NCBI GenBank assembly: GCA_017471405.1
Contig: JAFUTK010000006.1
Location: forward strand, 1 to 48,565
Source of the DNA: Ruminococcus sp.
GTDB taxonomy: Bacteria > Bacillota > Clostridia > Oscillospirales > Ruminococcaceae
Length of the DNA: 48,565 nt
Direction: 5' to 3'
The notes beneath the pieces are model-generated. The model did not search any database and was not told the origin of the DNA. It saw only the letters and a program-made list of their open reading frames with translations. Position numbers and translations under genes: made by a program. Below are positions 1 to 48,565 of the stretch, piece by piece (the first letter of the stretch is position 1; each line of letters opens with the position of its first letter).

Positions 1-17
1 GCGCAGATGCTCTAAAA

Positions 18-489
18 AGCACAAAGCTGTAAAATCAAAACGCGAAGCGCATTAAAAAGCGCGCGGTCAAGCCTCGCGCTAGAGGCTTGCGGGTCATTTT
101 ATCCTCTCGACAAGCTCGGCAGCGCCCTTGCAGAGCTCGAGACAGCGTCTCGTGTGCGGCGTCAGCCGCAAACCGGCGCTGCGAAAAGTAATAGCTCTAC
201 ACTCGCAGGAAAAGAGGGAGCGTCAGCGACCAATTTTTCCGTACCTAGGCGCACAAGCTGCGGGCGCCCGTCTCGGAGAAATACCCTTTTCCGGCGGTAA
301 CTGAATAGAATAGGCAAAAAGCGGCGGGGGCAAGCCCCCGCCCTACGAGGTGAGATTTTAAAATGCGCCGGTACACCTCACTTTAGGAATGCGAGCACCT
401 ACGGTCACAGCGCGGGCGGGTTTCGGTCGCGGCACGAAAGCTGCACGCCCGCACACACCCAAGCGACCAACGGGAGCGCAGCGCGACAT
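18..489 (+). repeat. Intergenic hairpin-rich repeat, copy 1 (modules A-B-C-D)
   Basis: This 470-bp stretch has no credible gene and matches copies 2-5 and 8. Module A carries the palindrome around 40-53 and the hairpin in the run GCCTCGCGCTAGAGGCTTGC (72-91). Module B carries GCGGCGTCAGCCGC (156-169). Module C contains the TTTTTCCGTACCTAGGCGCACAA block (about 234-256). Module D contains the GGCGGGGGC/GCCCCCGCC hairpin (333-352) and ends in the AAGCGACCAACGGGAGCGCAGCGCGA block (about 462-487). Unlike the other full copies it lacks the roughly 75-bp hairpin between the two CGGCGCTGCG arms, going straight from CGGCGCTGCG to AAAAGTAATAGCTC. The bases before position 18 are unassigned. Confidence 0.85.
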
Positions 490-490
490 A

Positions 491-520
491 AAAAAGCATA
501 CTCCGAAAGGAGTATGCTTT
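491..520 (-). terminator. Rho-independent terminator of the rpmH-khpB operon
   Basis: A perfect 12-bp stem (493-504 paired with 509-520, loop GAAA) lies just past the khpB stop codon. Read on the minus strand it runs into at least five T residues. It also separates khpB from repeat copy 1 and could act in both directions. Confidence 0.85.
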
Positions 521-525
521 CTTTG

Positions 526-1341
526 TTAGAATTCGATTTTGCCGTAAAGACCGGCGTTGAGGTTGTCCTCGGGCTTGGGTCGCTTGTAGTCCTTTTCAAA
601 GCTTGTGGTGATGTCGTAATGTGCCTTGGGCTTTCTGTCACGTCTGCCGCCGCCCTTGCGACCGCCCTTTCCGCCGCGGAAGTCCCGGGGCTTCTTATCG
701 GTGGAGCTGATGAGCACCTTTCTGTAGGGCTCCTCACCTGTGGAGCGGGAGGTAACTCCCTCAATTTCGGATACTGCTGCGTGGATAATGCGTCTCTCGT
801 AGGGATTCATAGGCTCCAGAGCAGAGGTTCTGCCGCTTCTCTTGACATTGCCGGCGATCTTTCTTGCCAGCTCCTCAAGCTGAGCCTTTCTGCGCTCTCT
901 GAAACCGTTGCAGTCGGTAGAGATTCGGAAATAATCTCTGTCCAGCTTGTTGCAGACCAGTGAGGAAAGATACTGGAATGCATCCAGCAGCTCGCCCTTC
1001 TTGCCGATGAGCTCCTCAAAGCCCTCGCCGGAGATCTCGAAGGAAGCGCCGTTCTCGGCGGGAGTAACGGTTATCTCGGCGTCGGTGATGCCCATATCTC
1101 TCATAACTGCCAGCATATAGTTCTTTGCGATGTCTTCCTTTGTGTCGCCGGCTGCCGGTGCAGCAGCAACGGGAGGCTCATACTCTGCTTCTACTCTTGC
1201 TTCGCCCTTGATCTTGCCGAAAATGCCCTTCTTGGGCTCCTCGAGAACACTGAAGGTGATCTCACTCTCGCTTACTCCGAATTCGGCGCTTGCTGCCGCT
1301 TTAGCCTCCTCAACAGTGGCAGCGATAAAAATTTTCTTCAC
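526..1341 (-). CDS. khpB: RNA-binding protein KhpB (Jag/EloR family)
   Basis: KhpB is a cytoplasmic RNA-binding protein that in other Firmicutes works with KhpA and affects cell elongation and division. The N-terminal Jag_N domain (about residues 1-50) is followed by a spacer, a KH domain with an intact GKKG loop (about residue 110) and an R3H domain with RRIIHAAV (about 180-190). A Gly/Arg/Lys-rich basic tail follows. I prefer the GTG at 1341, because AAAGGA lies nine bases upstream and the protein then begins VKKIFIAATVEEA like its relatives. An ATG at 1359, with AAGGAC twelve bases upstream, would add six residues. It is the last gene of the minus-strand operon rpmH-rnpA-yidD-yidC-khpB, which is the standard origin-proximal order. 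Confidence 0.93.
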   Translation of the reverse strand: MKKIFIAATVEEAKAAASAEFGVSESEITFSVLEEPKKGIFGKIKGEARVEAEYEPPVAAAPAAGDTKEDIAKNYMLAVMRDMGITDAEITVTPAENGASFEISGEGFEELIGKKGELLDAFQYLSSLVCNKLDRDYFRISTDCNGFRERRKAQLEELARKIAGNVKRSGRTSALEPMNPYERRIIHAAVSEIEGVTSRSTGEEPYRKVLISSTDKKPRDFRGGKGGRKGGGRRDRKPKAHYDITTSFEKDYKRPKPEDNLNAGLYGKIEF

Positions 1342-1380
1342 ACTTACCAATCCTTTCATATTTTAGCGGAGTCCTTTAAC

Positions 1381-2718
1381 TTAATCCTCGTGATATTCGT
1401 CGCCGTACTTTTCCGCATATTTTCTTCTTGCTTCGTTGAGCTTCTTGCGCTGCAGCTCCTTGAGCTCCGCCTTTGTGAGTTTCTTCTCGTCATCGTCGGA
1501 GGAGTCATCATCGTCGTCATCGTCATCGGAGGCGGGCTTTATGCCGCGCTGCTCCTGCTGCATTTCTATTGCTCTTTCCATAAACGTCTTTTTGCCGTTC
1601 TTGCGGCGCTCCTTGTTGGCCTCCATTTCCTTAGCAACTACCTCCCTGATGTGTGCGGGAGAATAGAGGAGGTTAAGGGCTATTATCTGGATAAGTCCGA
1701 ACAGGGAGGAATAAATCCAGTAAAGACCCAGACCTGCGGGGTATGTGAAGGCTATCCACAGCGAGAACAGAGGCAGCACGAAGAGCATTACCTTCATGCC
1801 CATGCCCATATTCATACTGGGGTTATTCTTCTTGGTGAAATGGTTGGAGATAATGGTGGATGCCAGCTGGAGCAGGAAGGACAGTATCGGAATGATAGCC
1901 AGCTTGCTCTTGACATCAGGGATAGCGCCCAGAGAGAGGCCGAAAATCTCATAAGAGAAGCCGTCGGCAAACTCTCTGACATCGTCGGGGAGGACATCGG
2001 CATACTGTGCGTTAGCCTTGGTCTCATCGACGAAGTCGAAGGTGGTCAGCTCAGGACGGGAGACCACAAGATTCTGGGAGATATAGCTGGAATTTGTAAT
2101 AAAGGTGTCGATATCCGGGTACTTGGTGAAGATATCCACCATAACGTCCCACATATCCTTATTGTCGCTGTCGTTGAAATACTTGGCGGTGGATTTGTAG
2201 CTCTTGTCGTCCTCGTTGGTAACGATCTCCTTGACCTTATCCCAGTCATTGCCGTTTTCCTCTAGGAGCTTGGCAACGGTGGTATCGTTGGCGGCCACGT
2301 CCTTGCTTAAGGTAGCCAGAGCGGTTATCCTGTTGTTGGAGGTGGTGATGCTTTCCTTATCCAGATCGGAAACATAGGTCAGGGGACCGTAGATAACGGG
2401 GATCATGGAGAACAGGATAAGCATTGAGATGAGCATCGGCAGGCAGCTTGCCATGGGGTTTACGCCATGCTTCTGATAGAGGGCCATTGTCTCCTCATTG
2501 AGCTTTTCCTGATTTTTGCCGTACTTTTTCTTGAGCTTATCAAGCTCCGGCTGTATCAGCGACATACGGGCTGTGCTCTTCTGCTGCTTGATGCTCAGAG
2601 GCAGCAGGATAACTCTCGTGATGAGAGTAAAAATAAGCAGCGCCACGGCGTAGTTCTGGACGAGCTTGTAGCAGCCCTTCATCAGCCAGCCGAGGGGTGT
2701 TGCAAAAAGACTAAACAT
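1381..2718 (-). CDS. yidC: Membrane protein insertase YidC
   Basis: YidC inserts and folds integral membrane proteins, alone or with SecYEG. The Gram-positive form starts directly at the first conserved helix (about residues 22-42), which carries the conserved Arg (R35, in TLITRVILLP) of the hydrophilic groove. A charged cytoplasmic hairpin follows (RMSLIQPELDKLKKKYGKNQ), then a second helix at about 92-115 and three more between about 268 and 352. The external loop between helices 2 and 3 is about 150 residues, longer than in most Bacillus homologues. The C-terminus is unusual: a run of eight Asp residues, then a Lys/Glu-rich basic segment that could contact the ribosome. AGAGGATA precedes the ATG. 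No lipobox is seen. Confidence 0.95.
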   Translation of the reverse strand: MFSLFATPLGWLMKGCYKLVQNYAVALLIFTLITRVILLPLSIKQQKSTARMSLIQPELDKLKKKYGKNQEKLNEETMALYQKHGVNPMASCLPMLISMLILFSMIPVIYGPLTYVSDLDKESITTSNNRITALATLSKDVAANDTTVAKLLEENGNDWDKVKEIVTNEDDKSYKSTAKYFNDSDNKDMWDVMVDIFTKYPDIDTFITNSSYISQNLVVSRPELTTFDFVDETKANAQYADVLPDDVREFADGFSYEIFGLSLGAIPDVKSKLAIIPILSFLLQLASTIISNHFTKKNNPSMNMGMGMKVMLFVLPLFSLWIAFTYPAGLGLYWIYSSLFGLIQIIALNLLYSPAHIREVVAKEMEANKERRKNGKKTFMERAIEMQQEQRGIKPASDDDDDDDDSSDDDEKKLTKAELKELQRKKLNEARRKYAEKYGDEYHED

Positions 2719-2797
2719 ATTTTATCCTCTTTTATTCTTTTTCTTTACTTTCCTTATTGTATTCCTCGCCGCTGACGCGGCTGGGAAGAGTGCGGAA

Positions 2798-3076
2798 TTA
2801 TTTTCCCGCGGGGTAGCTTATTTTGGGCTTTGAGCCGTCTCTTTTTCGGCGGAGAATATGGAACTCCTCCGGCACCTTGTCTATCCCGCCCATGCTCCAG
2901 GGATTGCAGCGGAGCAGTCTCCATACAGAGAGGATAGTTCCCTTAATAGCTCCATGCTTTGAATAGGCCTGAAGACAGTAGGTGGAGCAGGTGGGGTAAT
3001 ACTTGCATCTGGCGGGGAACAGGGGACTGATAAACTTCTGATAGAATTTTATCGGGAGCATAAAGATATACTTCAT
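2798..3076 (-). CDS. yidD: Membrane protein insertion efficiency factor YidD
   Basis: This 92-residue protein has the YidD signature. An N-terminal amphipathic segment (FMLPIKFYQKFISPLFP) is followed by CKYYPTCSTYCLQAYSKHGAIKG, then WRLLRCNPWSMGGIDKVPE. Family members lie at the inner face of the membrane and help YidC-dependent insertion. It starts four bases after the rnpA stop, with AAGAGAT upstream, and precedes yidC as in most Firmicutes. Confidence 0.95.
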   Translation of the reverse strand: MKYIFMLPIKFYQKFISPLFPARCKYYPTCSTYCLQAYSKHGAIKGTILSVWRLLRCNPWSMGGIDKVPEEFHILRRKRDGSKPKISYPAGK

Positions 3077-3080
3077 AGCG

Positions 3081-3446
3081 TTATCTCTTTTTTGTACCGG
3101 GTTTTTTGCCGGTGTCGCTGTTCATAGCCGGAATAACTCTGTGCATAATGAATCCGACCACGTCCCGGGAGGACTTCTCACAGGCGTCGTTCCTGGCGGC
3201 GAAGATGATGTCGTAGCCGATGGGAATCTGCGCCTCGGTCAGGCGGTAGCCCGCTCTGAAAATGCGCTTGATGCGGTTTCTCTCCACAGCGCCGCCGTTT
3301 TTCTTGCTGACGGATATGCCAAAGCGGTTCACAGGCAGCTTGTTCTTCAAATAATAGACCGTGGCAAAGCCGCAGCTGACAAAGCTGCCCTGCCTAAAGC
3401 ACCTCAAATAAATCTTGTTGTCCTTAACGGTCTCGGTAAAAAGCAT
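3081..3446 (-). CDS. rnpA: Ribonuclease P protein component
   Basis: RnpA is the protein subunit of RNase P, which removes the 5' leader of tRNA precursors together with the M1-type RNA (rnpB, not in this window). The 121-residue protein has the RNR motif in GGAVERNRIKRIFRAGYR (about residues 50-67) and the preceding FGISVSKKNG strand. The basic tail ends GKKPGTKKR. It lies downstream of rpmH, separated by about 90 bp that contain a terminator-like hairpin, so its level may be set by partial read-through. The ribosome-binding site (AGGGG nine bases upstream) is weak. Confidence 0.95.
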   Translation of the reverse strand: MLFTETVKDNKIYLRCFRQGSFVSCGFATVYYLKNKLPVNRFGISVSKKNGGAVERNRIKRIFRAGYRLTEAQIPIGYDIIFAARNDACEKSSRDVVGFIMHRVIPAMNSDTGKKPGTKKR

Positions 3447-3480
3447 TATCGCAGCCCCTGTTTAAAAAATTATCTTTCAA

Positions 3481-3530
3481 TAAAAGACAAAAGACCATAT
3501 ACCTTTCAGCAGGCTGAAAAGTAGATGGTC
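3481..3530 (-). terminator. Attenuator-like hairpin between rpmH and rnpA
   Basis: A two-part stem is visible: GACCAT (3493-3498) pairs with ATGGTC (3525-3530), and inside it CTTTCAGC (3503-3510) pairs with the GCTGAAAAG run (3513-3521). On the minus strand the stem is followed by CTTTTGTCTTTTA. This has the shape of an intrinsic terminator or processing hairpin that would let most transcripts stop after the abundant ribosomal protein gene and fewer continue into rnpA. Confidence 0.6.
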
Positions 3531-3538
3531 ATTGAAGA

Positions 3539-3673
3539 TCAGTAGCTGAGTCTTGCTCTGCCCTTTGCACGTCTGCGAGCCAAAACCTTTCTGCCGTTCC
3601 TTGTAGACATTCTCTTCATAAATCCGTGGACCTTTTTTCTCTGGAGCTTCTTAGGCTGATATGTTCTTTTCAT
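3539..3673 (-). CDS. rpmH: 50S ribosomal protein L34
   Basis: The 44-residue protein begins [18 protein letters not shown] and ends [11 protein letters not shown], a complete and typical bL34. The open frame extends far upstream, but the family start is the ATG at 3673, preceded by GAAGGAGGGAAAA. It is the first gene of the minus-strand operon and is transcribed away from dnaA. Confidence 0.98.
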
Positions 3674-3787
3674 TTCATTTTCCCTCCTTCGGTAAGCGCC
3701 GCTGCGGGAGCATAATGCTGCCGGCGGCTGACGTAAACGGGCTGTAAAAGCATTAACACAATACACTTTTTGCCCCTGCAATAATCT

Positions 3788-3817
3788 ATTATAACTCAAA
3801 GGGACAGGTCTTGTCAA
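3788..3817 (-). promoter_or_regulatory. Promoter of the rpmH operon
   Basis: On the minus strand TTGACA (3812-3817) and TATAAT (3788-3793) are separated by 18 bp. Both hexamers are perfect sigma-A consensus, and this is the only strong match upstream of rpmH. Confidence 0.75.
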
Positions 3818-4033
3818 GCCTGTTAACAGTTTTTTTATATTTATTTTTTTGCGCAATTTCGGCATACTTTTCAGAAAACGCGGAGCATTTCTTAATTTTT
3901 TATTACATTGAAAAGAACACCTCCCATATCTTGATAAAATGAGACAAAAAGCGTCAATATACAGTGGCCTTAAACGTAAAACCGCGGTTTGCGATACACT
4001 ATTATAAATATATAACAAATAACGCCCAAACAC

Positions 4034-4062
4034 TTGAATTTTCAACTCAACTATGTTATAAT
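4034..4062 (+). promoter_or_regulatory. dnaA promoter with a possible DnaA-binding 9-mer in the spacer
   Basis: TTGAAT (4034-4039) and TATAAT (4057-4062) are 17 bp apart, about 125 bp upstream of dnaA. The spacer holds TTTTCAACT (4039-4047), close to the 9-mers clustered downstream of dnaA (6147-6192). If those are DnaA boxes, this one would sit where DnaA could repress its own gene. Confidence 0.7.
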
Positions 4063-4185
4063 GTAATAGAATTGGTCTTTATGCCCTATTTTGAGGTAAG
4101 AGATAAAAATCAAACGTATGTTTGTGTAAAAATATCATATTTTTCATAGGCGGGAGCCTGTATTTCAAGGAGGAAGTAAAGTAAA

Positions 4186-5523
4186 ATGGAATCGCTTAAC
4201 GAAGCGTTTGATCTGGTGATCAGATACTGCGAAAACGACACTGAAAATATCAGCTCTATAGCATTGGATAAATGGATAAAGAAGCTAGAGCCCTTCAAGC
4301 TGGAGGGCAGCTCGGTAATGCTTCTGACCGAGAGCGAGTTTACAAAGAACATCATCTCGACCCACTATCAAGGACTGCTGGAAAAGGCTTTTGAGAACGT
4401 ATTCGGGTTTCCGGTAAAGGTGGAGCTGCTTATCCGCTCAAAGGAAGAGGAGCCTGCGGAGATACCTGTTTACAACGACCCGGGGCAGTTTGACAATCTT
4501 ACCTTTGAAAATTTTGTAAAGGGCAAATCAAACGAGCTGGCATACGCTTTTTCTATGGCGGTAGCTGGAAACAGCGAGATGAGCAGCTCGATAAATACCA
4601 ATCAGACCTTTAACCCGCTGTTTATTTACGGTGATTCGGGTCTTGGTAAGACGCACCTGATGAAGGCTATCGAGAACGAGGTAAAGAGGAAAAATCCCGA
4701 TATAAAGATAATCTACACCACAGGCGAGAATTTTCTCAATGAGCTGGTGGAGGCCATAAAGAACAAGACCACCACAGAATTCCACAGCAAGTACAGAGGA
4801 GCGGATTTTCTGCTTATTGACGACATTCAGTTCCTTGCGGGAAAGGATTCGGCACAGGAGGAATTTTTCCACACCTTCAACGACCTTTACAATGCAAGAA
4901 AGCAGATTGTACTGACTGCGGATATTGCTCCCTCGAAGATAAATCTGCTGGTGGACAGGCTGAGGTCGAGGTTCTCTCTAGGAGTACAGGTAGACATACA
5001 GCCGCCTGATTTTGAAACGAGAATGGCTATTGTCAAGAGAAAGGCGGAGCTGGTGGGCTTACAGCTGGGTGACAATATAGCGAGGCTCATTGCGGAGAAG
5101 ATAAAGACAAATATCCGTCAGCTTGAGGGCACTGTCAACAAGATGAAGGGATTGACGGAATTCACCAATGAAACGCCTTCTATGGCAATGGCACAGAAGG
5201 TTGTCAAGGAGATAATGATACAAAATCACCCGCAGGAGATAACTGTTGACAGGATTTTGACTGAGGTTGCAAATGTTTTCAGGGTAACGCCGGAGGACAT
5301 AAGGAGCACCAACAGGAGCAAGAACATTTCGACGGCGAGAAAGGTAGCGATATACATTCTTAAGGAGGTCAAGGGAATGACTTACTTACAGATAGGTGAT
5401 GAGCTGAACAAGAACCACTCGACGATGACGATACACTATCAGAAGATATCGGAGCAGATAGCTTCGAGCAATGATCTGAGACAGGTCGTTGACGATCTGA
5501 TAAAGAATCTGAAGAATAATTAA
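4186..5523 (+). CDS. dnaA: Chromosomal replication initiator protein DnaA
   Basis: DnaA is the AAA+ initiator that binds oriC, melts it and loads the helicase. At 445 residues it is a normal length. Domain I covers about residues 1-80. The AAA+ core carries Walker A GDSGLGKTHL (about 148-157) and Walker B LLIDDIQF (about 209-216). Domain IV is the C-terminal DNA-binding part. Its signature helix reads IGDELNKNHSTM, so the usual Arg-Asp-His of the recognition helix is K409-N410-H411. Loss of the Asp (D433 in E. coli) is notable because no canonical TTATCCACA box is seen in the adjacent intergenic regions. AAGGAGG lies upstream of the ATG. Confidence 0.98.
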   Translation: MESLNEAFDLVIRYCENDTENISSIALDKWIKKLEPFKLEGSSVMLLTESEFTKNIISTHYQGLLEKAFENVFGFPVKVELLIRSKEEEPAEIPVYNDPGQFDNLTFENFVKGKSNELAYAFSMAVAGNSEMSSSINTNQTFNPLFIYGDSGLGKTHLMKAIENEVKRKNPDIKIIYTTGENFLNELVEAIKNKTTTEFHSKYRGADFLLIDDIQFLAGKDSAQEEFFHTFNDLYNARKQIVLTADIAPSKINLLVDRLRSRFSLGVQVDIQPPDFETRMAIVKRKAELVGLQLGDNIARLIAEKIKTNIRQLEGTVNKMKGLTEFTNETPSMAMAQKVVKEIMIQNHPQEITVDRILTEVANVFRVTPEDIRSTNRSKNISTARKVAIYILKEVKGMTYLQIGDELNKNHSTMTIHYQKISEQIASSNDLRQVVDDLIKNLKNN

Positions 5524-6115
5524 GCGAGCACAAAGCTGTAAAATCAAACGCGGAGCGCGTTAAAAGTTTCGGTCGGCTCAAGGAACTTGAGCCTGCCTTT
5601 CTTCAAAGGCTTGCGGGTCAAGGGCAGAGCCCTTGCAGAGCTCGAGGCAGAGCCTCGTTCGCGGCGCCAGCCGCGAGACGGCGCTGCGCACAGTACCAAA
5701 AAGGCACCACCTTATCCGACTACTCCAAGTTATCAAGAACAAACCAAATTCGCAGCGCCGAAATGTTACAGCTCTGCACTTGCAGGAAACAGTGAGCGCA
5801 GCGAACGTTTTTCCGTCCTCAGACACACAAAGTGAGGGCGCCCGGCTCCTCGCCTCTGACGCGGCTCGGAGACAGTCAGGGAAAGGATATTATCTCCGCC
5901 TGCGGCGGAGAAATACCCTTTTCCGGCGAAAACTGAATAAGCAACAGCGGCGAAGGCAAGCCCCCGGCCTACAATGCAAATCTTGAAAACGCGCCAGCGC
6001 ATCTCACCTTGTAGAATGCGAGCACCTACGATCACATTACGGACAGACTTCGGTCGCGGCACGAAAACAGCACGCCCGCACACACCTAAGCGACCAAAGG
6101 GAGCGCAGCGTGACT
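5524..6115 (+). repeat. Intergenic hairpin-rich repeat, copy 2 (modules A-B-C-D)
   Basis: This is the longest copy and starts immediately after the dnaA stop. Module A differs from the other copies: the usual hairpin is replaced by GGCTCAAG/CTTGAGCC (5575-5593) and GCCTTT/AAAGGC (5594-5609). The 29-bp ATTTTATCC/GGATAAAAT cassette is absent. The CGGCGCTGCG (about 5679-5688) and CGCAGCGCCG (about 5752-5761) arms are both present, as are module C (TTTTTCCGTCC near 5809) and an extra TCTCCGCC/GGCGGAGA hairpin (5893-5911). Module D ends in AGCGACCAAAGGGAGCGCAG. Small open frames inside it are shadows. Confidence 0.85.
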
Positions 6116-6120
6116 TTAAA

Positions 6121-9105: not shown

Positions 9106-9445
9106 AAACGAACGCGGAGCGCGTTAAAAAGCGCGCGGTCAAGCCTCGCGCTAGAGGCTTGCGGGGTAAATTTATCCTCGGCAAGCTCGGATAAAATGGG
9201 GCTGGCCCTAGCGGAGCATATTTCATTCTCGAACAACTCGAATGAAATTGGCAGAGCCTCGTTTGCGGCGTCAGCCGCAACTCGGCGCTGCGACAAATGA
9301 GAGAAAAGGCTCGACTTTTTCTGACCTCTCGGAAGTAGCAAAAACATAGCAATTCGCAGCGCCGAAAATGAGCAGCTCACGTCTCACAGGAAACAGTGAG
9401 CGTAAGCGAACGTTTTTCCGTACCTAGGCGCACAAAGTGAGGGAT
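9106..9445 (+). repeat. Intergenic hairpin-rich repeat, copy 3 (modules A-B-C)
   Basis: Starts four bases after recF with AACGCGGAGCGCGTT (9111-9125). It carries the GCCTCGCGCTAGAGGC hairpin, a slightly altered TTTATCC/GGATAAA cassette (9171-9196), the ATTTCATTC/GAATGAAAT cassette (9218-9246), GCGGCGTCAGCCGC, and both CGGCGCTGCG (about 9284-9293) and CGCAGCGCCG (about 9355-9364) arms. Module C ends at AAAGTGAGGGATGCC. Module D is missing and remB follows. Confidence 0.85.
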
Positions 9446-12376: not shown

Positions 12377-12790
12377 GCGGAGAAACGAACGCGGAGCGCG
12401 TTAAAAAGCGCGCGGTCAAGCCTCACGTCAGAGGCTTGCGGGTCAATTTTATCCTCGACAAGCTCGGATAAAATGGGGCAGAGCCCTTGCGGAGCTCGAG
12501 GCAGAGCCTCGTTTGCGGCGTCAGCCGCAACTCGGCGCTGCGAAAGTGAGTAAAAAGGCACATCCTTTTCCTGCAATATCACAGGTGCAAGAACAAACAT
12601 ATTTCGCAGCGCCGAAATGTCACAGTTCACACTTCACAGGAAACAGTGAGCGCCAGCGAACGTTTTTCCGTACCCAAGCACACAATCTGCGGGCGCCCGG
12701 CTCCTCGCCCCTGACGCGGCTCGGAGACAGTCCGGAAGGCGAAATACAATGCCCGCACAAATGAAAAAACTCCCCGCCGTCAGGCGAGGT
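12377..12790 (+). repeat. Intergenic hairpin-rich repeat, copy 4 (modules A-B-C, D remnant)
   Basis: Begins about ten bases after the YcxB-like stop. It carries AACGCGGAGCGCGTT (12388-12402), an intact ATTTTATCC/GGATAAAAT cassette (12447-12475), the GAGCTCGAGGCAGAGCCTCG form of module B (12494-12513), and GCGGCGTCAGCCGC. It has the best preserved long-range arms, CGGCGCTGCGAAA (about 12533-12545) and TTTCGCAGCGCCG (about 12602-12614). After module C it runs into GGCTCCTCGCCCCTGACGCG and a short remnant before gyrA. No promoter for gyrA is evident in it. Confidence 0.85.
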
Positions 12791-15384: not shown

Positions 15385-15945
15385 TGAAAAGAAAAACGCG
15401 AAGCGCGTTAAAAAGCGCGCGGTCAAGCCTCGCGCCAGAGGCTTGCGGGGTAATTTTATCCTTGACAAGCTCGGATAAAATGGGGCAGAGCCCTGACCGG
15501 AGCAAATTTCATTCTCGAACAACTCGAATGAAATTGACAGAGCCTCGTTTGCGGCGTCAGCCGCAACTCGGCGCTGCGCCAGTGTAGGAAAAGGCTCGTC
15601 CTTTTCCGACCTTATCACAGACGCAAGAACACAGCAATTTGCAGCGCAGAAAAGTTATAGCTCTGCACTCACAGGAAACAGCGAGCGATAGCGAGCGTTT
15701 TTCCGTACCTAGGCGCACAAAGTGAGGGGCAACCGGCTCCACGTCGTTGACGTGGCTAGGGGATAATAAATACCCTTTACCGGCAGAAGCTGAATAGGCA
15801 AAGGCGGCGGGGCAAGCCCCCGCCCTACGATGCGAGATTTGATAATTCGCCGCGTGGCTCACCTTGTGGAATGCGAGGTCACAGCTTGAAGGCACTTCGG
15901 TCGCGGAACGAAAGCTGCATGCCCGCACAAACCAAAGCGCGATTT
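15385..15945 (+). repeat. Intergenic hairpin-rich repeat, copy 5 (modules A-B-C-D)
   Basis: Begins about ten bases after gyrA. It has ACGCGAAGCGCGT (15397-15409), the GCCTCGCGCCAGAGGC hairpin, and both optional cassettes: ATTTTATCC/GGATAAAAT (15453-15481, one change) and ATTTCATTC/GAATGAAAT (15506-15534). The CGGCGCTGCG left arm (15569-15578) faces a decayed right arm (GCAGCGCAG, 15641-15649). Module C, the GGCGGGGCAAGCCCCCGCC hairpin (about 15805-15824) and module D with the CTTCGGTCGCGG block follow. This is the most complete copy in the window. Confidence 0.85.
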
Positions 15946-20142: not shown

Positions 20143-22650
20143 ATGGCAGCAACAAAGAAATACAAGCTTAATGAACTGGCTAAGGACTTAAAGCTGACGG
20201 GTCCGCAGCTGATAGAGTGTCTGGCGGCACTGGGCGGAGAGCCCAAGAAGACCGTTTCGGCGCTGACGCCCGAGGAGGTCAGCTTTGTCTTTGATTATTT
20301 CACGCTGAAAAATCAAGCGGAGAATTTTGACGCATTCTTTATGAATACTGTAAGGCCGGAGGGTGAGCCGGAGAGGGTCACCAAGAAGAAGGCTGTCAAG
20401 AAGGAGGAGCCTGCAAAGGCTGCGGAGCCTGAGGCGGCAAAGCCTGCCAAGGAAGAAAAGCCCGTAGAAAAGGCTGAGGAAAAGAAGGCTGAGGAGAAGA
20501 AGCCCGCAGAGGAAAAGAAGCCAGAGCAGCCCAAGCCAGAAAAGCGCAAGGAGCCCAAGAAGCAGGCCAAGAAGCAGGAGCACGGCGTAAAGACCTTTAT
20601 CGGAGGCTCGAAGTCCGGCTCGGACGAGGGATACACCGTATCCGAGGGCAGCGAGGGCGGCAGCAGGAGAAATGTTGACACCCGCGGCAGCTATGTTGAG
20701 CTGGACAAATACAATGAGAAGTATGACAACCTTGCCAACACCAAGCAGAACAGAAGCAAGGAGAACTTCCAGAAGAAGCAGAAGCTTACACAGAAGTCCC
20801 AGCAGTACAAGAAGCAGCAGAACCAGGGCGCCAAGAGGCGCGAGGGCGAGAGCGAGAAGGAGAGGCTGCGCCGTCTGGAGCTGGAAAAGGCAAGAAAGCA
20901 GCAGCTTAAGGTACTTATCCCTGATGAGATAACCGTAGGTGAGCTGGCTACACGTTTGAAGGTAACTGCCACAGAGGTCATCAAGAAGCTGATGGGTCTG
21001 GGCGTTATGGCATCCATAAACGAGACTATCGACTTTGACACTGCTGCGCTGGTAGCTGAGGAGCTGGGCGCAAAGGTGGAGAAGGAGGTTATCGTCACCA
21101 TTGAGGAGAGGCTCATCGTTGACGAGGAGGACTCCGAGGAAAATCTTGAGGAGAGAAGCCCTGTTGTTGTTGTAATGGGACACGTTGACCACGGCAAGAC
21201 CTCTATCCTTGACAGGATAAGAAATGCAAATGTTGCAGAGGGTGAGGCAGGAGGCATCACCCAGCACATCGGCGCTTATCAGGTATATTACAAGAACAAG
21301 AAGATAACCTTCTTAGATACTCCGGGACACGAGGCCTTCACCGCTATGAGAGCGAGAGGTGCTAATGTCACCGATATCGCAATACTTGTTGTTGCGGCGG
21401 ACGACGGCATCATGCCTCAGACTGTTGAGTCGATAAACCACGCTAAGGCGGCGGGAGTTTCCATCATCGTTGCCATCAACAAGATGGACAAGGAGGGTGC
21501 AGACCCTGAGAGAGTAAAGCAGGAGCTCACCGAGCACAGCCTTGTTGTTGAGGAATGGGGCGGCGACGTTATCGCTGTGCCTGTTTCCGCAAAGACGGGT
21601 ATGGGCATTGACGAGCTGCTGGAGAATATCCTGCTGGTGGCAGAGGTCAAGGAGCTCAAGGCAAATCCTCACAAGGCGGCAAAGGGTACCGTTATCGAGG
21701 CGAAGCTGGACAAGGGCAAGGGCCCGACCGCTACGCTGCTGGTCGAGGGCGGAACTCTGCACTCGGGCGATGTTATCATCGCTGGCACTGCTGTGGGACG
21801 TGTAAGGACTATGACCAACGACAAGGGCCACAAGATAGACAAGGCGGGCCCCTCCACACCTGTTGAGATAACAGGTCTGGCAGAGGTTCCTATGAGCGGC
21901 GACACCTTCAACGCTGTTGCGGACGAGAAGCTGGCAAGAGAGCTTGTTGAGCAGAGACGTCACCAGGCGAAGGAGGAGGAGTTCAAGAAGGCCAGCAAGG
22001 TAACTCTTGACAACCTGTTCAGCCAGATCAGCGAGGGCGAGATGAAGGAGCTTCCCATTATCGTCAAGGCTGACGTTCAGGGCTCGGTAGAGGCTGTTAA
22101 GCAGAGCTTAGAGAAGATCTCCAACGACGAGGTAAGAGTAAGGGTTATCCACGGGGCAGTGGGTGCTGTCAACGAATCTGATGTAATGCTGGCGAATGCG
22201 TCTAACGCTATCATTGTAGGCTTCAATGTAAGGCCCGACCCGGTAGCCAAGGAAAACGCGGAGAGAGATGGCGTGGATATCCGTCTTTACAGGATAATCT
22301 ACGATGCTATTGAGGAGATCACCACTGCTATGAAGGGCATGCTGGCTCCCAAGTACCGCGAGATCGACACTGCAAGAGTAGAGGTAAGGCAGGTATACAA
22401 GATCAGCTCTGTCGGAAACGTTGCGGGTGCTTATGTACTCTCCGGAAAGATCGGCAGGAACGATCTTATCAGAGTTGTGCGTGACGGCATCATCATTGCT
22501 GACGACAAGATGAGCTCACTCAAGCGCTTCAAGGACGATGTAAAGGAAGTCAACGAGGGCTACGAGTGCGGTATCACTCTGGAGAAGTTCACCGACATCA
22601 AGGAGGGGGACATCTTCGAGGGATACATTATGGAGGAATACCGCGAGTAA
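20143..22650 (+). CDS. infB: Translation initiation factor IF-2
   Basis: IF-2 is the GTPase that brings initiator fMet-tRNA to the ribosome. The 835-residue protein starts with an IF2-N helical domain ([22 protein letters not shown]), then a long low-complexity Lys/Glu/Pro/Ala-rich stretch (about 80-240). A second IF2-N domain (about 260-310) precedes the G domain with GHVDHGKTS (about 346), DTPGHEAF (about 392) and NKMD (about 446). Domains II to IV complete a normal-length protein. GGAGGAATATTG precedes the ATG. A partial inverted repeat copy separates it from rimP. Confidence 0.98.
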
Positions 22651-22654
22651 TTCG

Positions 22655-22790
22655 GAATGTGCACGCGGGTGCACAATGCGAACAAGTTCGCATACGAAGT
22701 CGCGTTACGCTCCCGTTGGTCGCTTTCAAGAGTTCGGGCGGCGCAGTTTTGTGCCCGCGGTCGTGACTGGGGCGTGAGCCGGAGGGAGTA
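22655..22790 (-). repeat. Intergenic repeat, copy 6 (inverted module D fragment)
   Basis: Relative to the other copies this fragment is reversed: CGTTACGCTCCCGTTGGTCG (about 22704-22723) is the complement of the end of module D, followed by the CGCGGTCGTGAC block. It also carries GTGCAC/GTGCAC (22659-22673) and a perfect hairpin TGCGAAC/GTTCGCA (22677-22692). Modules A-C are absent. It fills nearly all of the gap between infB and rimP. Confidence 0.75.
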
Positions 22791-24814: not shown

Positions 24815-25075
24815 ACGGGCGCCCTCAGATTGCTGGCAAAGGGACGGAAAAACGTTCGCTGCGCTCACTGTTTCCTGTGAGGCGGCGGGGGCTTGCCCCC
24901 GCCCTACGAGTGATAATGCTCGGCAAATTTTTAAAAGAGCGAAATGCGTCTCATTCTCAAGAATGCGGGCACTAGAGTTACATTGCGGACGAATGTGCGA
25001 GCGCGGCACAGAAGTTACAGTTCCGCAGGCACCCAAGCGACCAACGGGAGCGAAGCGCGAATTCGGTGGTGCACC
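24815..25075 (+). repeat. Intergenic repeat, copy 7 (inverted module C fragment joined to direct module D)
   Basis: The first part (about 24815-24885) is the reverse complement of module C: GGGCGCCCTCA, then GGACGGAAAAACGTTCGCTG and CACTGTTTCCTGTGA. From 24883 the sequence is direct module D, with the GGCGGGGGC/GCCCCCGCC hairpin (about 24884-24903), GAATGCGGGCAC and the AAGCGACCAACGGGAGCG block (about 25035-25052). It ends in a GTGCAC inverted pair (25066-25082). The junction of opposite orientations inside one spacer shows rearrangement between modules. Confidence 0.8.
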
Positions 25076-27889: not shown

Positions 27890-28415
27890 GGAAACGAACG
27901 CGAAGCGCGTTAAAATGTGCGCGGTCAAGCCTCGCGCTAGAGGCTTGCGGGGTGTCGGGGCAGCGCCCTGACCGGAGCTCGAGGCAGAGCCTCGTTCGCG
28001 GCGTCAGCCGCGAGACGGCGCTGCGCCAAGTGACCGAAAAGGCTCGTCCTTTTCAGACCTAGCAGAAGTATCAAGAACACAGCAATTCGCAGCGCCGAAA
28101 AGTTACAGTTCTGCACTCGCAGGAAACAGTGAGCGTAAGCGACCGTTTTTCCGTACCTAGGCGCACAAAGTGAGGGCGTCCCCCGCCCGCTAATTTTTGA
28201 AAAAGCATCACCCTGTTGACACAATAGGGTGGTAGAGTATAAAATGGTGAAATTTTGGTGCGGGGGCTATTTCCCAGCATCAATTAGTGATAAATGCGCA
28301 GACGCATCCCATTTTGTGGAATGCGAGTACCGAGGGCTGCTGCTTTAATGAGCTGCGGCCGCGGTGCGATGACTATGCGCCCGCAAAGAGCGAGGCGTGA
28401 CGTTAAAAAACGCAC
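27890..28415 (+). repeat. Intergenic hairpin-rich repeat, copy 8 (A-B-C, spacer with promoter, decayed D)
   Basis: Starts about a dozen bases after ribF with AACGCGAAGCGCGTT (27898-27912). It has the GCCTCGCGCTAGAGGC hairpin, lacks both the ATTTTATCC and ATTTCATTC cassettes, and keeps GCGGCGTCAGCCGC, both CGGCGCTGCG (about 28016-28025) and CGCAGCGCCG (about 28089-28098) arms and module C (to about 28180). A unique stretch (28181-28290) carries the promoter of the ABC operon, followed by a decayed module D (GTGGAATGCGAG, CCCGCAAAGAGCGAGGCGTGACG). Confidence 0.8.
28217..28244 (+). promoter_or_regulatory. Promoter of the GldA-like ABC operon
   Basis: TTGACA (28217-28222) and TATAAA (28239-28244) are 16 bp apart, roughly 190 bp upstream of the ATPase gene. 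The long leader contains the decayed module D of the repeat. Confidence 0.65.
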
Positions 28416-44013: not shown

Positions 44014-44042
44014 TTGAAATAGAGAGGGCTATATGTTATACT
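44014..44042 (+). promoter_or_regulatory. Promoter of the MoxR-DUF58-transglutaminase operon
   Basis: TTGAAA (44014-44019) and TATACT (44037-44042) are 17 bp apart, about 48 bp upstream of the MoxR start codon. Confidence 0.7.
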
Positions 44043-44089
44043 TTAGGTGACAAGCACTGTGGCAAAAAAGTCGAAAGGAGGAGCAAAAA

Positions 44090-45007
44090 ATGATTGGTAA
44101 GCTAAAAGCCTGCATACGGGAATATTTTGTGGGAGAGGAGGAGACGGTTGACTGTCTGCTCATTTGCCTGTTTGCGGGAGGTCATGTGCTGCTGGAGGGT
44201 GTGCCCGGCGTGGGCAAGACCACCCTTGCCTCCACTCTGGCGAGGGCTGTGAAATGCGACTTCGGCAGGATACAGTTCACTCCCGACACCCTGCCCTCTG
44301 ATGTGACGGGCACCGAGATATTCAATATGAAGACGGGAGAGTTTGAGTTCCGGCAGGGGGCTGTGATGCATCAGATAATTCTCGCCGACGAGATAAACCG
44401 CACCTCACCTAAGACCCAGGCGAGCCTGCTGGAAGCAATGGCGGAGGGACAGGTCACCGTCGGAGGGGTAAGGCACCCTCTGCCAAAGCCATTTATGGTC
44501 ATAGCCACACAGAACCCTGCCGCCTTTACCGGCACCTATCCTCTGCCGGAGGCGCAGATAGACAGATTTATGATGAAGCTGACCCTTTCCTACCCGGAGG
44601 AGGGGGAGGAGCTCCGTATGACTAAGAATATGCTTGCCGGAAAGGAGCCCGGCACCTTAGAGAGCATCATCACCGCCGAGGAGGTGCTTAAGCTTCAGCA
44701 GAGGGCGGCAAGCGTCACCGTAAAGGACGAGGTTATACTGTACGCCCGGAACATCGCCAAGCTGACAAGGGAGGAAAAGCGGTTCGTGCTGGGTGCCAGC
44801 CCCAGAGCTGTGCTGGCGCTCATAAAAGCCTCCCAGGCAAGAGCCCTGCTGGAGGGCAGGGATTTCGTCAAGCCCGACGATGTGAAATATGTGGCACCCC
44901 ACGTTCTCACTCACAGGCTGTCCCTTACCTCCGAGGCAAGGAGCGCCAGAGAGGACAAGGACGGCATCATTGCAAAGCTAATCGGCAGGGCAAAGGTACC
45001 TATGTGA
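44090..45007 (+). CDS. MoxR family AAA+ ATPase
   Basis: MoxR ATPases act as chaperones in assembly of envelope or metal-containing complexes. The 305-residue protein has Walker A GVPGVGKTTLASTLARA (about residues 36-52), Walker B ILADEINRTSPKTQASLLEAM (about 100-120), sensor 1 ATQNPAAFTGTYPLPEAQIDRF, and a lid domain with GASPRAVLALIKASQA. AAAGGAGGAGC precedes the ATG. It begins the set MoxR, DUF58, transglutaminase, which is conserved in many bacteria. Confidence 0.94.
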   Translation: MIGKLKACIREYFVGEEETVDCLLICLFAGGHVLLEGVPGVGKTTLASTLARAVKCDFGRIQFTPDTLPSDVTGTEIFNMKTGEFEFRQGAVMHQIILADEINRTSPKTQASLLEAMAEGQVTVGGVRHPLPKPFMVIATQNPAAFTGTYPLPEAQIDRFMMKLTLSYPEEGEELRMTKNMLAGKEPGTLESIITAEEVLKLQQRAASVTVKDEVILYARNIAKLTREEKRFVLGASPRAVLALIKASQARALLEGRDFVKPDDVKYVAPHVLTHRLSLTSEARSAREDKDGIIAKLIGRAKVPM

Positions 45008-45032
45008 CACAGACATACAAACAGGAGCATTT

Positions 45033-46196
45033 ATGAGAAGAAACAGGATCATCTGGGGAGTACTGTGGGTGCTGTCCGTCGTCTGCATCAGCTTAGACGG
45101 CGGAGCGGTGACCTACGGCTTTTTCACAGCGATAACGCTTGTCCCCATAGTCTCCGCTCTTTATCTGCTGGCAGTATATAAGCTGTTTCATATATATCAG
45201 GAGCTAGACCAGCGGTTCATCACAGTGAACGAGCCGGTCAGCTACCGCTTTGCTCTGGCGGACGAATACCCCATACAGTTTTCAGGCATAAGGGTGAGGT
45301 TTTTTACAAGCTTTTCCTCCATCACCGACCTGGACGACGAGACGGAATACGAGCTGGCGCCCCATTCGAGAATAGAAAAGGAGACAAGGCTCATCTGCAA
45401 ATATCGGGGAGAGTATGAGATAGGAATAAGGGAGATAGAGATACAGGACTTCTTTCGGCTGTTTAGGATAAGATACAAGAACAAAGAGCGCATAAGGGTC
45501 TTTGTAAAGCCCCAGCTGATAGAGACTGACTCTGTCGGGGATATCAGGCTATCCGATGCGGTGAGAAGCTCCGAGCAAAGCAAAAGCGAGCCCGATGTGC
45601 TGAGCCGGGATTATGTCCCCGGTGACGACCGCCGGTATATCAACTGGAGCCAGTATGCCAGAACAGGCACCCTTATGACAAGGCTGCTGACAGGCACCGA
45701 CCATCAGGAGATAGCCGTCATCACCGACACCTACCGCAGAGACAGCGAGCCCTCAGAGTTCCTGCCCGCCGAGAACAGGATATTGGAGATAACGCTGGCG
45801 CTCTGCTATTATTTCAGCAGGAACAGGATAAACTTTTCCGAGTACCATTTGCAGAATGAGATGGTCTGTCTCAATGCCGAGAACACCAAGGCCTTTGATG
45901 AGCTTTACGAGGCCTTAGCGGAGGTTAGCTTCAACAGTCGCAACACTCACAAGAGCCTATACAAGTCAGTGCTGCGGAGGCGGGATATCTTTGAAAGCTC
46001 TATGGTGTTCATTGTCCTGTCGGTATGGGACAGGCTGACCGACGGTATGCTAAGGGAGCTGGAACGAAACGGTCTCCACGCCGTCATATGCTTTGTGAGC
46101 GATAATGAGGACCTAAGGCCGGAGCTGTCGGAGCACAGGAGCTGTGACCTCATACAGCTCTCGCCCTACAGGGACATAACAGGGGGGCTTAAGTAA
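45033..46196 (+). CDS. DUF58 domain protein
   Basis: The 387-residue protein has two N-terminal membrane helices (about 7-21 and 26-48) and a beta-rich domain. The DUF58 motif follows in RDYVPGDDRRYINWSQYARTGTLMTRLL (about 190-217), then a vWA-like C-terminal part. DUF58 proteins are encoded with MoxR ATPases and transglutaminases. It overlaps the following gene by one base (TAATG), so the two are translationally coupled. The exact function is unknown. Confidence 0.9.
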   Translation: MRRNRIIWGVLWVLSVVCISLDGGAVTYGFFTAITLVPIVSALYLLAVYKLFHIYQELDQRFITVNEPVSYRFALADEYPIQFSGIRVRFFTSFSSITDLDDETEYELAPHSRIEKETRLICKYRGEYEIGIREIEIQDFFRLFRIRYKNKERIRVFVKPQLIETDSVGDIRLSDAVRSSEQSKSEPDVLSRDYVPGDDRRYINWSQYARTGTLMTRLLTGTDHQEIAVITDTYRRDSEPSEFLPAENRILEITLALCYYFSRNRINFSEYHLQNEMVCLNAENTKAFDELYEALAEVSFNSRNTHKSLYKSVLRRRDIFESSMVFIVLSVWDRLTDGMLRELERNGLHAVICFVSDNEDLRPELSEHRSCDLIQLSPYRDITGGLK

Positions 46197-48403
46197 TGAT
46201 GACTATGCCCGCCCTTTACGATATTATAAATATACTTCCGCTGTCACTGCTCTCGGTGATGCTGCTGGGCGGCTATGCCGGCATACCGGAAAAAAGCGCT
46301 GCCGCGGTCATTTTCTGTCTGCTCTTTACTGTCTGGCTGACGGCGCTTAAAAACATGAAGCTGAAAAACCGGCTGCGGAATGTAGGGCTCGTTCTGGTAT
46401 TTATCCTCGGGCTCTGGCTGGCTGTGGGAGAAGAGAGCAGAGATATCTTTTTTGAGAAGCATCTCTGGGTGGCATGGGTGTTTGGCTTCAGCGCCGGAGC
46501 AGTGGTAATTGGGCTCATTTTATACCGGAGCATCTGGCTGCGGAGGGCCGCAGCGCTGGCACTGCTGGGCTGGTGCATTGTTATGACAGTTTTCGGCAGG
46601 GACATCGGCAAGGGAGCCTTTGCGCTTATCTGCTTTTTCCTGCTTATCCGCGCTTCTGAGGAGATACAGCGTAGGTGGCCAAAAAGCGGCAGCCCGGAGA
46701 TGGAAGGGCACATCACCCGGACGGCTCCGTTTATTGCAGCGCTCTGCCTTATTGTCTACTTTACTCCGGCGCCTGACAAGCCCTTCAGCTGGCAGTTTGT
46801 CAAGGATATCTATTACAGGACGGCTTCCTTCATCGGGCGCATATTCGGCACCTTTACCGAGCGCTCCGACGACTACGGCTCTATGGGCTTTTCGGAGGAG
46901 GGCGGCTTTCTCTCAAAGCTGGGGAGCAATGACGACGAGGTGATGTACATCACAGTTCTCGGCAGCTCCTCCGGGGAATACAGACTGGTGGGTTGCATAA
47001 GCGGCGACTTTGACGGCAGGGAGTGGGTATTCGGAGGTGAACCCGGGAACGAGCTGCGGACTATGGACTCCGTCGAGACCTTTGCCGCTGTGAGCAAGTA
47101 TTCCGTTTCAGAAAGAACCGACCTCATCATGAGGGTAGATATGGATAACGAGATGGGGTATTACAGCACAAGGTATATCTTTGCCCCCTCCAAAATCAAG
47201 TCGGAGACCACCAAAGGAAACGGCTTTAACATAAGCGAAAACGGTTTGAGCATAATTTCCGACAAGTGGCTGGGATATAAGGACACCTACCGGGTCTCCT
47301 GCTACGAGCTCAATTTCCGAAACCCGAAGCTGCCGGAGCTGCTTGAAAATGCCGCACCGCTGAATGAGGCAGAATGGAAGCAGTCTGCCGCTATGGTGGG
47401 AAGTCCCGGTATTTCCTTTGAGGAATATCAGAGCTACCGGAGCAAGGTCTATGAGAACTTCTGTCGCTCACGGGGAGTATCGGAGGAAGTGGAGAAGATA
47501 CTTGCCGCCATAAGGAGCGAGGCCTCCGGAAGATATGAGGCGGCTAAAATGCTGGAGACCTTCCTCAGACAGATGGAATACTCCACCGACTGCGGGCCTC
47601 TCCCGGACACCGTTACCGATGCGGCCAGCTTTCTTGACTATTTCCTGCTGACCTCACAGAAGGGCTACTGTATGCACTACTCAACAGCCTTTGTGCTGAT
47701 GGCGAACGAGCTAGGGATACCTTGCCGTCACGTTCAGGGCTACTATGTGAAAAAGAGCTTCGGCGGCAGGGTCACCGTTATGGAGAAGAACGCTCACGCC
47801 TGGCCGGAGGTGTATTTCGACAATGTGGGCTGGGTGGCCTTTGAGCCGACGCCGGGGTTCTCGGTATCCTCGGGCTGGGCGCTTGATGATATCCAGCTTT
47901 CCGACCTGGAGAGCTCCCCGCCGGAGCCGGAGATAACAATAAATATTCCGGAGCCTGTGGTTCTCCCGGAGGTAACGGAGGAGGAACAGGCAGGGCTTGA
48001 CCCACTTATTTTCATTATCCCCACGCTGGCGGTCATAGGCTTCCTGCTGATGTTTTACGCTGTGAGCCGGTTTCTGAACGCAAGGAAATACAGGCAGATG
48101 GGGACGACTGAGAAATTTAAGTTTCTTGCCGGGCAGGATATCCGGCTTATCGGGTATCTGGGGATAAGCCCCGGGGAGGGCGAGACCCTGTCGGAATATG
48201 CAGAGAGGATAACTGCCTCTGATGAAGAGGGGCTCACAGAGCGCATAGGGTTTATCCAACTGTATGAGGCTGTGCTCTACTCGGACAGAGGGGTGACTTC
48301 CGATGAATTATCCGCGGCGGAGGAAAACACCCGCGCACTGCGTGAGCTGGTGAAAAAGCGGAGCCTGAGGCTCAGGGTGATGCTAATCGTCAGGGGGCGT
48401 TGA
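46196..48403 (+). CDS. Transglutaminase-like membrane protein (TgpA type)
   Basis: The 735-residue protein has an N-terminal block of five or six membrane helices (about 12-200) and an extracytoplasmic middle. The transglutaminase core (about 460-560) has the catalytic Cys in QKGYCMHYSTAFVLMANELGIPCRHVQGYYV and the catalytic His in NAHAWPEVYF. The third position is Glu in VAFEPTPGF, as in TgpA-like members. A Pro/Glu-rich linker, a further helix (about 602-622) and a cytoplasmic tail with a DUF4129-like segment follow. With MoxR and DUF58 it forms a conserved envelope unit. Confidence 0.92.
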   Translation: MMTMPALYDIINILPLSLLSVMLLGGYAGIPEKSAAAVIFCLLFTVWLTALKNMKLKNRLRNVGLVLVFILGLWLAVGEESRDIFFEKHLWVAWVFGFSAGAVVIGLILYRSIWLRRAAALALLGWCIVMTVFGRDIGKGAFALICFFLLIRASEEIQRRWPKSGSPEMEGHITRTAPFIAALCLIVYFTPAPDKPFSWQFVKDIYYRTASFIGRIFGTFTERSDDYGSMGFSEEGGFLSKLGSNDDEVMYITVLGSSSGEYRLVGCISGDFDGREWVFGGEPGNELRTMDSVETFAAVSKYSVSERTDLIMRVDMDNEMGYYSTRYIFAPSKIKSETTKGNGFNISENGLSIISDKWLGYKDTYRVSCYELNFRNPKLPELLENAAPLNEAEWKQSAAMVGSPGISFEEYQSYRSKVYENFCRSRGVSEEVEKILAAIRSEASGRYEAAKMLETFLRQMEYSTDCGPLPDTVTDAASFLDYFLLTSQKGYCMHYSTAFVLMANELGIPCRHVQGYYVKKSFGGRVTVMEKNAHAWPEVYFDNVGWVAFEPTPGFSVSSGWALDDIQLSDLESSPPEPEITINIPEPVVLPEVTEEEQAGLDPLIFIIPTLAVIGFLLMFYAVSRFLNARKYRQMGTTEKFKFLAGQDIRLIGYLGISPGEGETLSEYAERITASDEEGLTERIGFIQLYEAVLYSDRGVTSDELSAAEENTRALRELVKKRSLRLRVMLIVRGR

Positions 48404-48427
48404 CTTTTCGATGCGGGGTGGTATAAT
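48400..48427 (+). promoter_or_regulatory. Promoter reading out of the window
   Basis: TTGACT (48400-48405) and TATAAT (48422-48427) are 16 bp apart and overlap the end of the transglutaminase gene. Transcription would enter repeat copy 9 and whatever gene lies beyond the window. Confidence 0.6.
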
Positions 48428-48439
48428 AAGATAAATCAG

Positions 48440-48565
48440 AATTTGCGGGGCACGCCCCCGCGGGCGAATTCGCGTTACGCTCCTTCGTCGCTTTCAATTG
48501 AGCGGGCGACGTACTTTTGCACCCGCGGTTGTGACCTTTGTTAGTGTGAAGAACTGAAAATGCGC
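48440..48565 (-). repeat. Intergenic repeat, copy 9 (inverted module D fragment, runs off the window)
   Basis: As in copy 6 the module D end is reversed: GCGTTACGCTCCTTCGTCGC (about 48472-48491) followed by GCGGGCGACG and ACCCGCGGTTGTGACC. It starts with a GCGGGGCACGCCCCCGC palindrome-like run (48444-48460) and GCGAATTCGC (48463-48472). The window ends inside or just after it. Confidence 0.7.

Follow-up and report, generated by a model that had tools for sequence, protein, structure and literature searches.

The EFAR repeats of Enterococcus faecalis are modular, palindromic mobile elements that lie near gene ends. In Escherichia coli, a significant share of the repetitive extragenic palindromic (REP) sequences is reported to lie 1 to 20 nucleotides (nt) from the end of an open reading frame, and translation may drop when that distance falls below 16 nt (PMC12306157). 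Genes for REP-associated tyrosine transposases (RAYTs) are described as always flanked by two REPs (PMC2817692), and some RAYT-like genes are reported to be flanked by inverted repeats, as in the TIRYT/TIR families (PMC3733652). Here we describe a repeat of Ruminococcus sp., element A, that came to light in a contig of 48,565 nt (JAFUTK010000006.1 of assembly GCA_017471405.1), which in its entirety we call the window. An initial annotation of the window had pointed to a single family of nine related, hairpin-rich intergenic blocks. The blocks are where they were said to be, as repeat searches, inspection of the sequence and profile searches agree, but they do not make one family: the profile search and a second set of matches divide them between two, A and B. 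Element A, about 300 nt long, is our main subject. It is short, non-coding and dispersed and, judging by sites that are empty in relatives, mobile. With a probability of roughly 0.7, we read it as a non-autonomous mobile DNA element of the REP/BIME/BOX class (BIME, bacterial interspersed mosaic element) that resides in the 3' untranslated regions (3'UTRs) of genes.

The window is contig C15 of a draft genome, G000, of 2.04 Mb in 87 contigs that is 64% complete. Its named close relatives are mostly Ruminococcus metagenome-assembled genomes, many of rumen origin, and the related genome G197 is 66% complete. Our own-genome stretches amount to 484 kb, about a quarter of the draft, and were chosen because A copies are present in them; genes were called with a simple codon-usage script. 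Since the copy-holding stretches were selected, the copies are not independent and the genes are script-called, all counts of position and orientation given below are estimates.

A blast search with one copy of A gave at least 51 matches in its own genome (40 of 88 candidates were scored). A 24-mer taken from A, allowing up to 3 mismatches, matched 52 times there against once for the reversed control pattern, so the repeat is not a product of chance. A profile search of the 484 kb returned 65 hits at 63 places, 61 of them at 70 bits or more, which leaves 58 copies once 3 likely assembly duplicates are dropped; the cores are mostly 220 to 340 nt long. With a covariance model, R1, of a 137-nt core, whose match counts are lower bounds, we found at least 63 matches in G000, at least 35 in G197, at least 66 in G201 and at least 28 in G071, followed by at least 17 in G200, 14 in G202, 7 in G199, 3 in G205 and 2 in G207. 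Nine of the 16 genomes of the genus are positive, own genome included, and R1 returned zero matches in the other seven. Across 247 genomes of the family six are positive: G000 and G071, two members of one other genus (G113 with 2 hits, G192 with 8) and, weakly, G212 (2 hits, a third genus) and G121 (1 hit, E=8.5e-4, a fourth). To the eye, the copies in G113 and G192 have the same layout as A, with 5' hairpins, cassettes with AGA or AGC loops, a long-range helix and a hairpin around CAGnGAGCGnAGCGAnCG. The exact core sequence of G000 was not found elsewhere by pattern: in 197 family genomes the 24-mer turned up in its own genome and in two others, once each with 2 mismatches, which is no commoner than the reversed control, and an exact 35-nt core pattern gave no match in a contig database from which the own genome was possibly excluded. 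The earlier suspicion of many copies across the genome and its relatives is thus borne out by the profile and R1 searches, and the copies are not restricted to this region.

Could all this be an artefact of assembly, or local duplication? The draft is metagenome-assembled, many of its contigs terminate inside these elements (which helps to explain its fragmentation) and it holds the likely duplicates just mentioned. We find the idea scarcely credible: the flanks of A differ on dozens of contigs, and relatives of the element occur in other assemblies of the genus.

Element A is built of hairpins. Its 5' part consists of a small palindrome, AACGCGAAGCGCGTT, and a CAAGCC...GGCTTG hairpin; its middle is a variable run of hairpins whose loops are three or four bases long (CAAGGGC-AGA-GCCCTTG and CTGGGGC-AAA-GCCCCAG, for example), which vary between copies as whole units; and its 3' part comprises helix P7, formed by GGCGCTGCG and CGCAGCGCC about 60 nt apart, a terminal hairpin and then one of several alternative tails. 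The copy we use to illustrate the core domain of R1 lies at 5680-5817 on the forward strand, with this P7 and the terminal hairpin GGAAACAGTGAGCG...CGTTTTTCC. No convincing gene was called within A, and the first description of a mosaic, hairpin-built, non-coding element without a convincing gene inside holds good. Two variants on this plan are worth recording. In G201 (loci L150-L158) several contigs end in near-identical copies with an A-like 5' module and a 3' half made of another hairpin set, and in G197 (L142, L134) the terminal module occurs in several tandem repeats.

P7 is a long-range helix of 9 bp. It is completely paired in 98 of 103 copies, a figure that holds partly by construction because most copies were chosen by a pattern for both P7 strands. 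Its sequence changes are another matter: across genera its two strands occur in 12 distinct pairs, including GGCGCGGCA/TGCCGCGCC, GGCGGCGAA/TTCGCCGCC and GGCGCAATT/AATTGCGCC, one position shows four Watson-Crick types, and pairing averages 8.75 of 9 positions versus 7.33 when strands are swapped between types. The compensatory base changes that the initial annotation had proposed looking for are there, then, in at least one long-range helix. Within the genus, RNAalifold kept 16 pairs, 3 of them with double changes, and covariation contributes little (-0.7 of -20.3 kcal/mol). By eye, some copies look as if the loop of P7 could form a pseudoknot with the sequence 3' of the helix; in others this pairing does not hold. 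Nothing in the window matches an Rfam 15 family at its gathering score, and integron attC sites, group II introns and IscB-type RNAs were set aside as possible identities of the element.

A sites mostly differ between species. The site between recF and the next gene lacks A in all eight related loci (RecF identity 75-77%), one of which, going by identity and contig, probably belongs to G206, a genome with no A at all; the gap there is 1-48 nt in six loci, an apparent overlap in L186 and about 125 nt in L193, against about 390 nt in G000. None of the six related loci that extend to the site before gyrA has A there, and the dnaA-dnaN site is occupied in G000 and G197 only. When 23 copies of G197 are set against the 61 of G000, three agree in both neighbouring genes and in direction (at dnaA-dnaN, at ribF and on contig C55), one has the same site in the opposite direction and two have one common neighbour; single neighbours are also shared with G000 in G200 (after gyrA), G207 and G071. 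Copies are more alike within species than between them, with mean identities of 0.78 and 0.61. In an alignment of 65 copies the nearest neighbour is from the same species for 59, including 36 of 36 from G000 and 15 of 15 from G197, and the six exceptions come from the thinly sampled G199, G201, G205 and G207. Empty sites and species clustering together imply recent spread within species, or concerted evolution at sites that mostly change. Element A moves, or turns over fast, and the mobility first raised as a possibility is now likely.

One locus may have been caught in two forms. The start of the window (1-307) and the end of contig C7 (L095:10390-10766) have 35 nt in common before A and 37 nt after it; the C7 copy has the P7 loop, and the window copy has another hairpin in place of it. 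Short as these shared flanks are, the two are probably one locus present in two forms in the population, and if so, hairpin units are currently being exchanged.

As to where A settles, all nine blocks of the window begin within 40 nt past a stop codon, slightly more than the eight originally reported. Eight do so by called genes (at 22648 the start of the element overlaps the stop itself) and the first through the TAA at 13-15, which ends a called gene in the matching contig C7. It had also been noted that full copies lie in the orientation of the upstream gene. In the window this stands, for five copies by called genes and for copy 1 by way of C7, but genome-wide it is a bias and not a rule: among 56 copies of G000 with a visible upstream gene, 39 run with it and 17 against (P=0.005), and between tandem genes the split is 29 to 9 (P=0.002). 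Of the 39 sense copies, 26 have their 5' end no more than 30 nt from the upstream stop, 25 of them at 5-27 nt and one in overlap with the called gene; a 3' end comes that close to the stop of an opposing gene in 1 of 16 cases. Stops that start with TA are enriched beside A copies (21/26 versus 218/388 genes, P=0.013). A preference for the 3' ends of genes, which the initial annotation had proposed to look for, is there in G000, and the sense bias extends beyond it, with 46 copies in sense, 17 against and 9 without a visible upstream gene in 11 other genomes (72 of 75 hits counted). The direction of the element agrees with GC skew for 31 of the 42 copies in sense and for 8 of the 18 in antisense; replication-strand bias as the cause of orientation leaves the antisense copies unexplained and is confounded with gene strand.

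Such placement is what one might look for in an RNA element of the 3'UTR, selected by the host and kept for its fold, whether as mRNA stabiliser, insulator or translation-coupling device. The sense and stop-adjacent bias of G000, the sense bias of the 11 other genomes pooled (other genera included) and the pairing and covariation of P7, in copies mostly picked by pattern, all speak for it, as do four facing pairs of A-like elements between convergent genes in G201 (L276, L153, L275, L280), each member co-oriented with its own gene. We nonetheless think it unlikely. Facing pairs in G197, G199, G202, G205 and G113 have one antisense member, about a third of copies are antisense overall, and sites are mostly not common between species. 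The stems themselves also speak against it. Those of G000 contain 1671 Watson-Crick pairs, 21 G-U pairs (13 from one hairpin type), 7 A-C pairs and 63 other mismatches, and those of G197 contain 548, 1, 6 and 39, respectively, in a scan that admits one non-Watson-Crick pair per stem and so favours clean stems. An RNA-strand signature, an excess of G-U over A-C, is therefore not consistent between the two genomes (21:7 and 1:6), and without it selection as RNA is unproven; the mismatch pattern is the expectation for DNA palindromes maintained as such. The copy after recF sits between closely spaced genes, which probably form an operon, judging by the spacing, so that this copy is not at an operon end. 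On these three grounds (stems, unshared sites and the recF copy), the stabiliser or insulator RNA of the initial annotation is not demonstrated. A role of A as RNA would have covariation and placement in its favour and the strand test against it.

GC-rich hairpins after stop codons also bring transcription terminators to mind, and A might be a terminator cassette. A scan too lax to be decisive finds a hairpin with a T-run in 20 of 63 copies, below its background of 43% of random 350-nt stretches; in four of the six cases where a copy separates convergent genes, another hairpin resembling a terminator follows it; and the recF copy, between its closely spaced genes, fits a terminator badly. We consider this extremely improbable.

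The ends of A offer a different way of thinking about stop codons. Positions -28 to -25, counted from the first hairpin, hold TAA 26 times in 49 copies, compared with some 1% per position, and since 7 of 16 copies antisense to the upstream gene carry it too, this TAA is not only the stop codon of a gene. It is also frequent at -7 (13 occurrences), as part of the element. A terminus, TAAATCRGAAnTTGYG, is common to part of the A copies, to element B and, inverted, to some tails; with up to 2 mismatches it has 59 matches in G000, which is 64% complete, versus 8 for the control. (A fuzzier scan at 3-4 mismatches gave about as many hits as a random control and was replaced by this one.) Element B has the terminal inverted repeats expected of a miniature inverted-repeat transposable element (MITE): contig C24 carries a complete copy of 291 nt, C73 one of 289 nt, and C59 a minimal palindrome of 44 nt that has B ends. 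Only part of the A copies carry the 5' TAAATCRGAA, and only some have a 3' end that matches it. No terminus pair bearing a transposase, as an autonomous partner of a MITE would, was seen in the examined parts of 12 regions. On contig C77 (38392-38860, L247), a small open frame that resembles a membrane protein is enclosed by a pair of TAAATCRGAA termini, which hints that such ends may be able to carry genes.

The simplest account is that an insertion process recognises the termini and joins A 3' of a TAA, or regenerates a TAA, and so places copies at stop codons. An enzyme supplied in trans would copy or move A, which has no gene of its own and offers only its array of swappable hairpins, the long-range helix P7 and the terminal hairpin. 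Insertion would be polar, the 5' end of A, which in many copies is the TAA-containing terminus, landing just past stop codons, and A would then read in the sense of the gene and probably be transcribed within a 3'UTR or operon spacer, with whatever effect on the mRNA that might bring. Symmetric terminal repeats leave the polarity unexplained, which would call either for a single-strand mechanism that is itself polar or for selection acting on sense copies. Spread by way of an RNA intermediate, in which 3'UTR RNA is reverse transcribed and reinserted after stops, would suit both the sense orientation beside stop codons and the conserved multi-hairpin layout. The symmetric terminal repeats of the sister element B point to DNA, and we hold the RNA route to be very improbable. 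Most likely, A is moved in trans as DNA and settles sense-wise after stop codons.

A lead for the mobilising enzyme, not a demonstrated partner, is to be found in the ruv operon. Matches to the Y1 transposase family occur in 11 of the 16 genus genomes, and in some they are ordinary IS200-type proteins. Six of the 16 (G000, G197, G071, G200, G205 and G207) have a strong match, at 70-100% identity, to a single-copy orthologous Y1 protein of about 170-190 amino acids with an invariant HxH motif. All six carry A, and in all six the gene sits between ruvA and ruvB; in G197 (L231, 3578-6311) the Pfam order is RuvC, RuvA, Y1_Tnp, RuvB, and the further loci are L230, L232, L233, L234 and L235. Compared with its homologues, the G000 frame is cut short by a TAG. 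Among the genomes whose ruvA locus was seen, 6 of 7 element-bearing ones have Y1 there versus 0 of 3 element-free ones (Fisher P=0.03), a distribution that follows phylogeny. The element-bearing exception is G199, with at least 7 A copies yet ruvA directly before ruvB, and the three without Y1 or A are G206, G204 and G162; in G201 and G202 ruvA was not found, which makes them uninformative. Weak Y1 matches occur in the element-free G198 (31%) and G203 (24%). G113 and G192, which have A-like elements, have no Y1 homologue, and G212, with its two weak A hits, has one at 37%. No A match (E<=1, model built on G000 copies) lies within the 7-10 kb that surround Y1 in these six genomes, and among the terminus matches listed, the only one on its G000 contig, C50, is a 2-mismatch match about 3 kb off. 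Searching the literature for a RAYT or tyrosine transposase together with ruvA and ruvB brought up nothing relevant. We would give long odds against the full version of this idea, in which the ruvA-ruvB Y1 protein (HUH, IS200-type) is a domesticated transposase that acts on single-stranded A and B hairpins and inserts them 3' of TAA with the help of the RuvABC branch-migration and resolution machinery. If true, it would amount to a repeat-copying system inside a recombination operon, and TAA insertion would account for sense copies right after stops.

Several observations weigh against A as a trans-mobilised DNA element of 3'UTRs. No enzyme that moves it has been demonstrated. Its TAAATCRGAA terminus is found on only part of the copies and is not shown by those of G197, and the only target duplication is TA, itself part of the terminus, with none beyond it. 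About a third of the copies are antisense to the upstream gene, and some sites are common between species, such as dnaA-dnaN with G197 and the single neighbours in G200, G207 and G071. To these must be added the choice of stretches by A content, the non-independence of copies, the simple gene calls and the incomplete assemblies (64% for G000, 66% for G197).

Back in the window, the genes include dnaA, dnaN, recF, gyrB, gyrA, ribF and a jag-type gene, along with a small gene after recF that we take to be remB and one at 20143-22650 that is presumably infB. The profile search finds six copies of A, all on the forward strand, and one reversed fragment. Copy 1 (36-270) has a deleted or rearranged interior, and the copy at the end of C7 has the same short flanks around another interior. 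Copy 2 (5543-5844) lies between dnaA and dnaN, 20 nt past the dnaA stop; copy 3 (9107-9445) begins 6 nt past the recF stop and is followed by the small gene and then gyrB; copy 4 (12384-12699) lies before gyrA, 18 nt past a stop; copy 5 (15392-15729) begins 18 nt past the gyrA stop; and copy 6 (27893-28180) begins 16 nt past that of ribF. The reversed fragment, on the reverse strand at 24816-24881, is 66 nt from the 3' end of A. Six copies within the first 28 kb (1-28200), around dnaA-gyrA, is above the genome-average density, and a 20-kb stretch of contig C55 (L116) likewise holds six.

Three of the nine blocks, at 22655-22790, 48440-48565 and (for the most part) 24815-25075, are not copies of A. 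Matches to B are spread over these and over the tails of A copies: at 360-486, 5984-6116, 15840-15939 (diverged) and 28292-28383 (diverged), at 22648-22767 (B match 22695-22767), which starts at the TAA stop of gene 20143-22650 with the shared terminus TAATTCGGAAT, at 25016-25065, where there is a B end, and at 48432-48565, where one half of B runs from its terminal repeat TAAATCAGAATTTGCGGGGC until the contig end cuts off the rest. The AAGCGACC block, once counted with the single family, is part of the inverted-repeat-ended B and distinct from A, as is the AAGCGACCAACGGGAGCGC block; A has the TTTTTCCGTACC block as its 3' end.

What A brings to rumen Ruminococcus is a sizeable, structurally conserved and fast-turning-over repeat family. 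It lends itself to the question of why small mobile hairpins take up sense positions directly behind stop codons, and the Y1 gene of the ruv operon is a testable enzyme candidate. In the literature searched, a partial view with most subscription journals outside its scope, we found no description of such repeats in Ruminococcus. By general description only, A is like the EFAR repeats. It is like REP/BIME sequences and REPINs in its dispersed extragenic hairpins, mosaic arrays and inverted pairs (PMC2817692, PMC3733652, PMC3116915). It differs from REPs in its multi-domain core of about 300 nt, against REP units of 20-40 nt, and in that the Y1 gene, unlike those of RAYTs, is not flanked by A. 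The GTAG/CGTC tag is absent from the hairpin foot in all 101 feet scored (perfect stems of at least 7 bp, 61 A copies); GTAG occurs 11 times in A copies where 60 are expected, and CGTC 68 times where 69 are. Because tag, unit length and flanking-gene tests fail, we do not assign A to REP. The BOX elements of Streptococcus pneumoniae, likened here by description, share with A a modular composite build, fixed ends, variable inner modules, predicted RNA stem-loops and a proposed mobilisation in trans (PMC3049150); A differs in its sense bias beside stop codons. As in the TIRYT/TIR families, RAYT-like Y1 transposases may be tied to inverted-repeat families here (PMC3733652), the difference being that this Y1 gene is in the ruv operon. 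Set beside these systems, A is apparently an undescribed, structurally conserved, hairpin-built family of mobile repeats of a known general kind.

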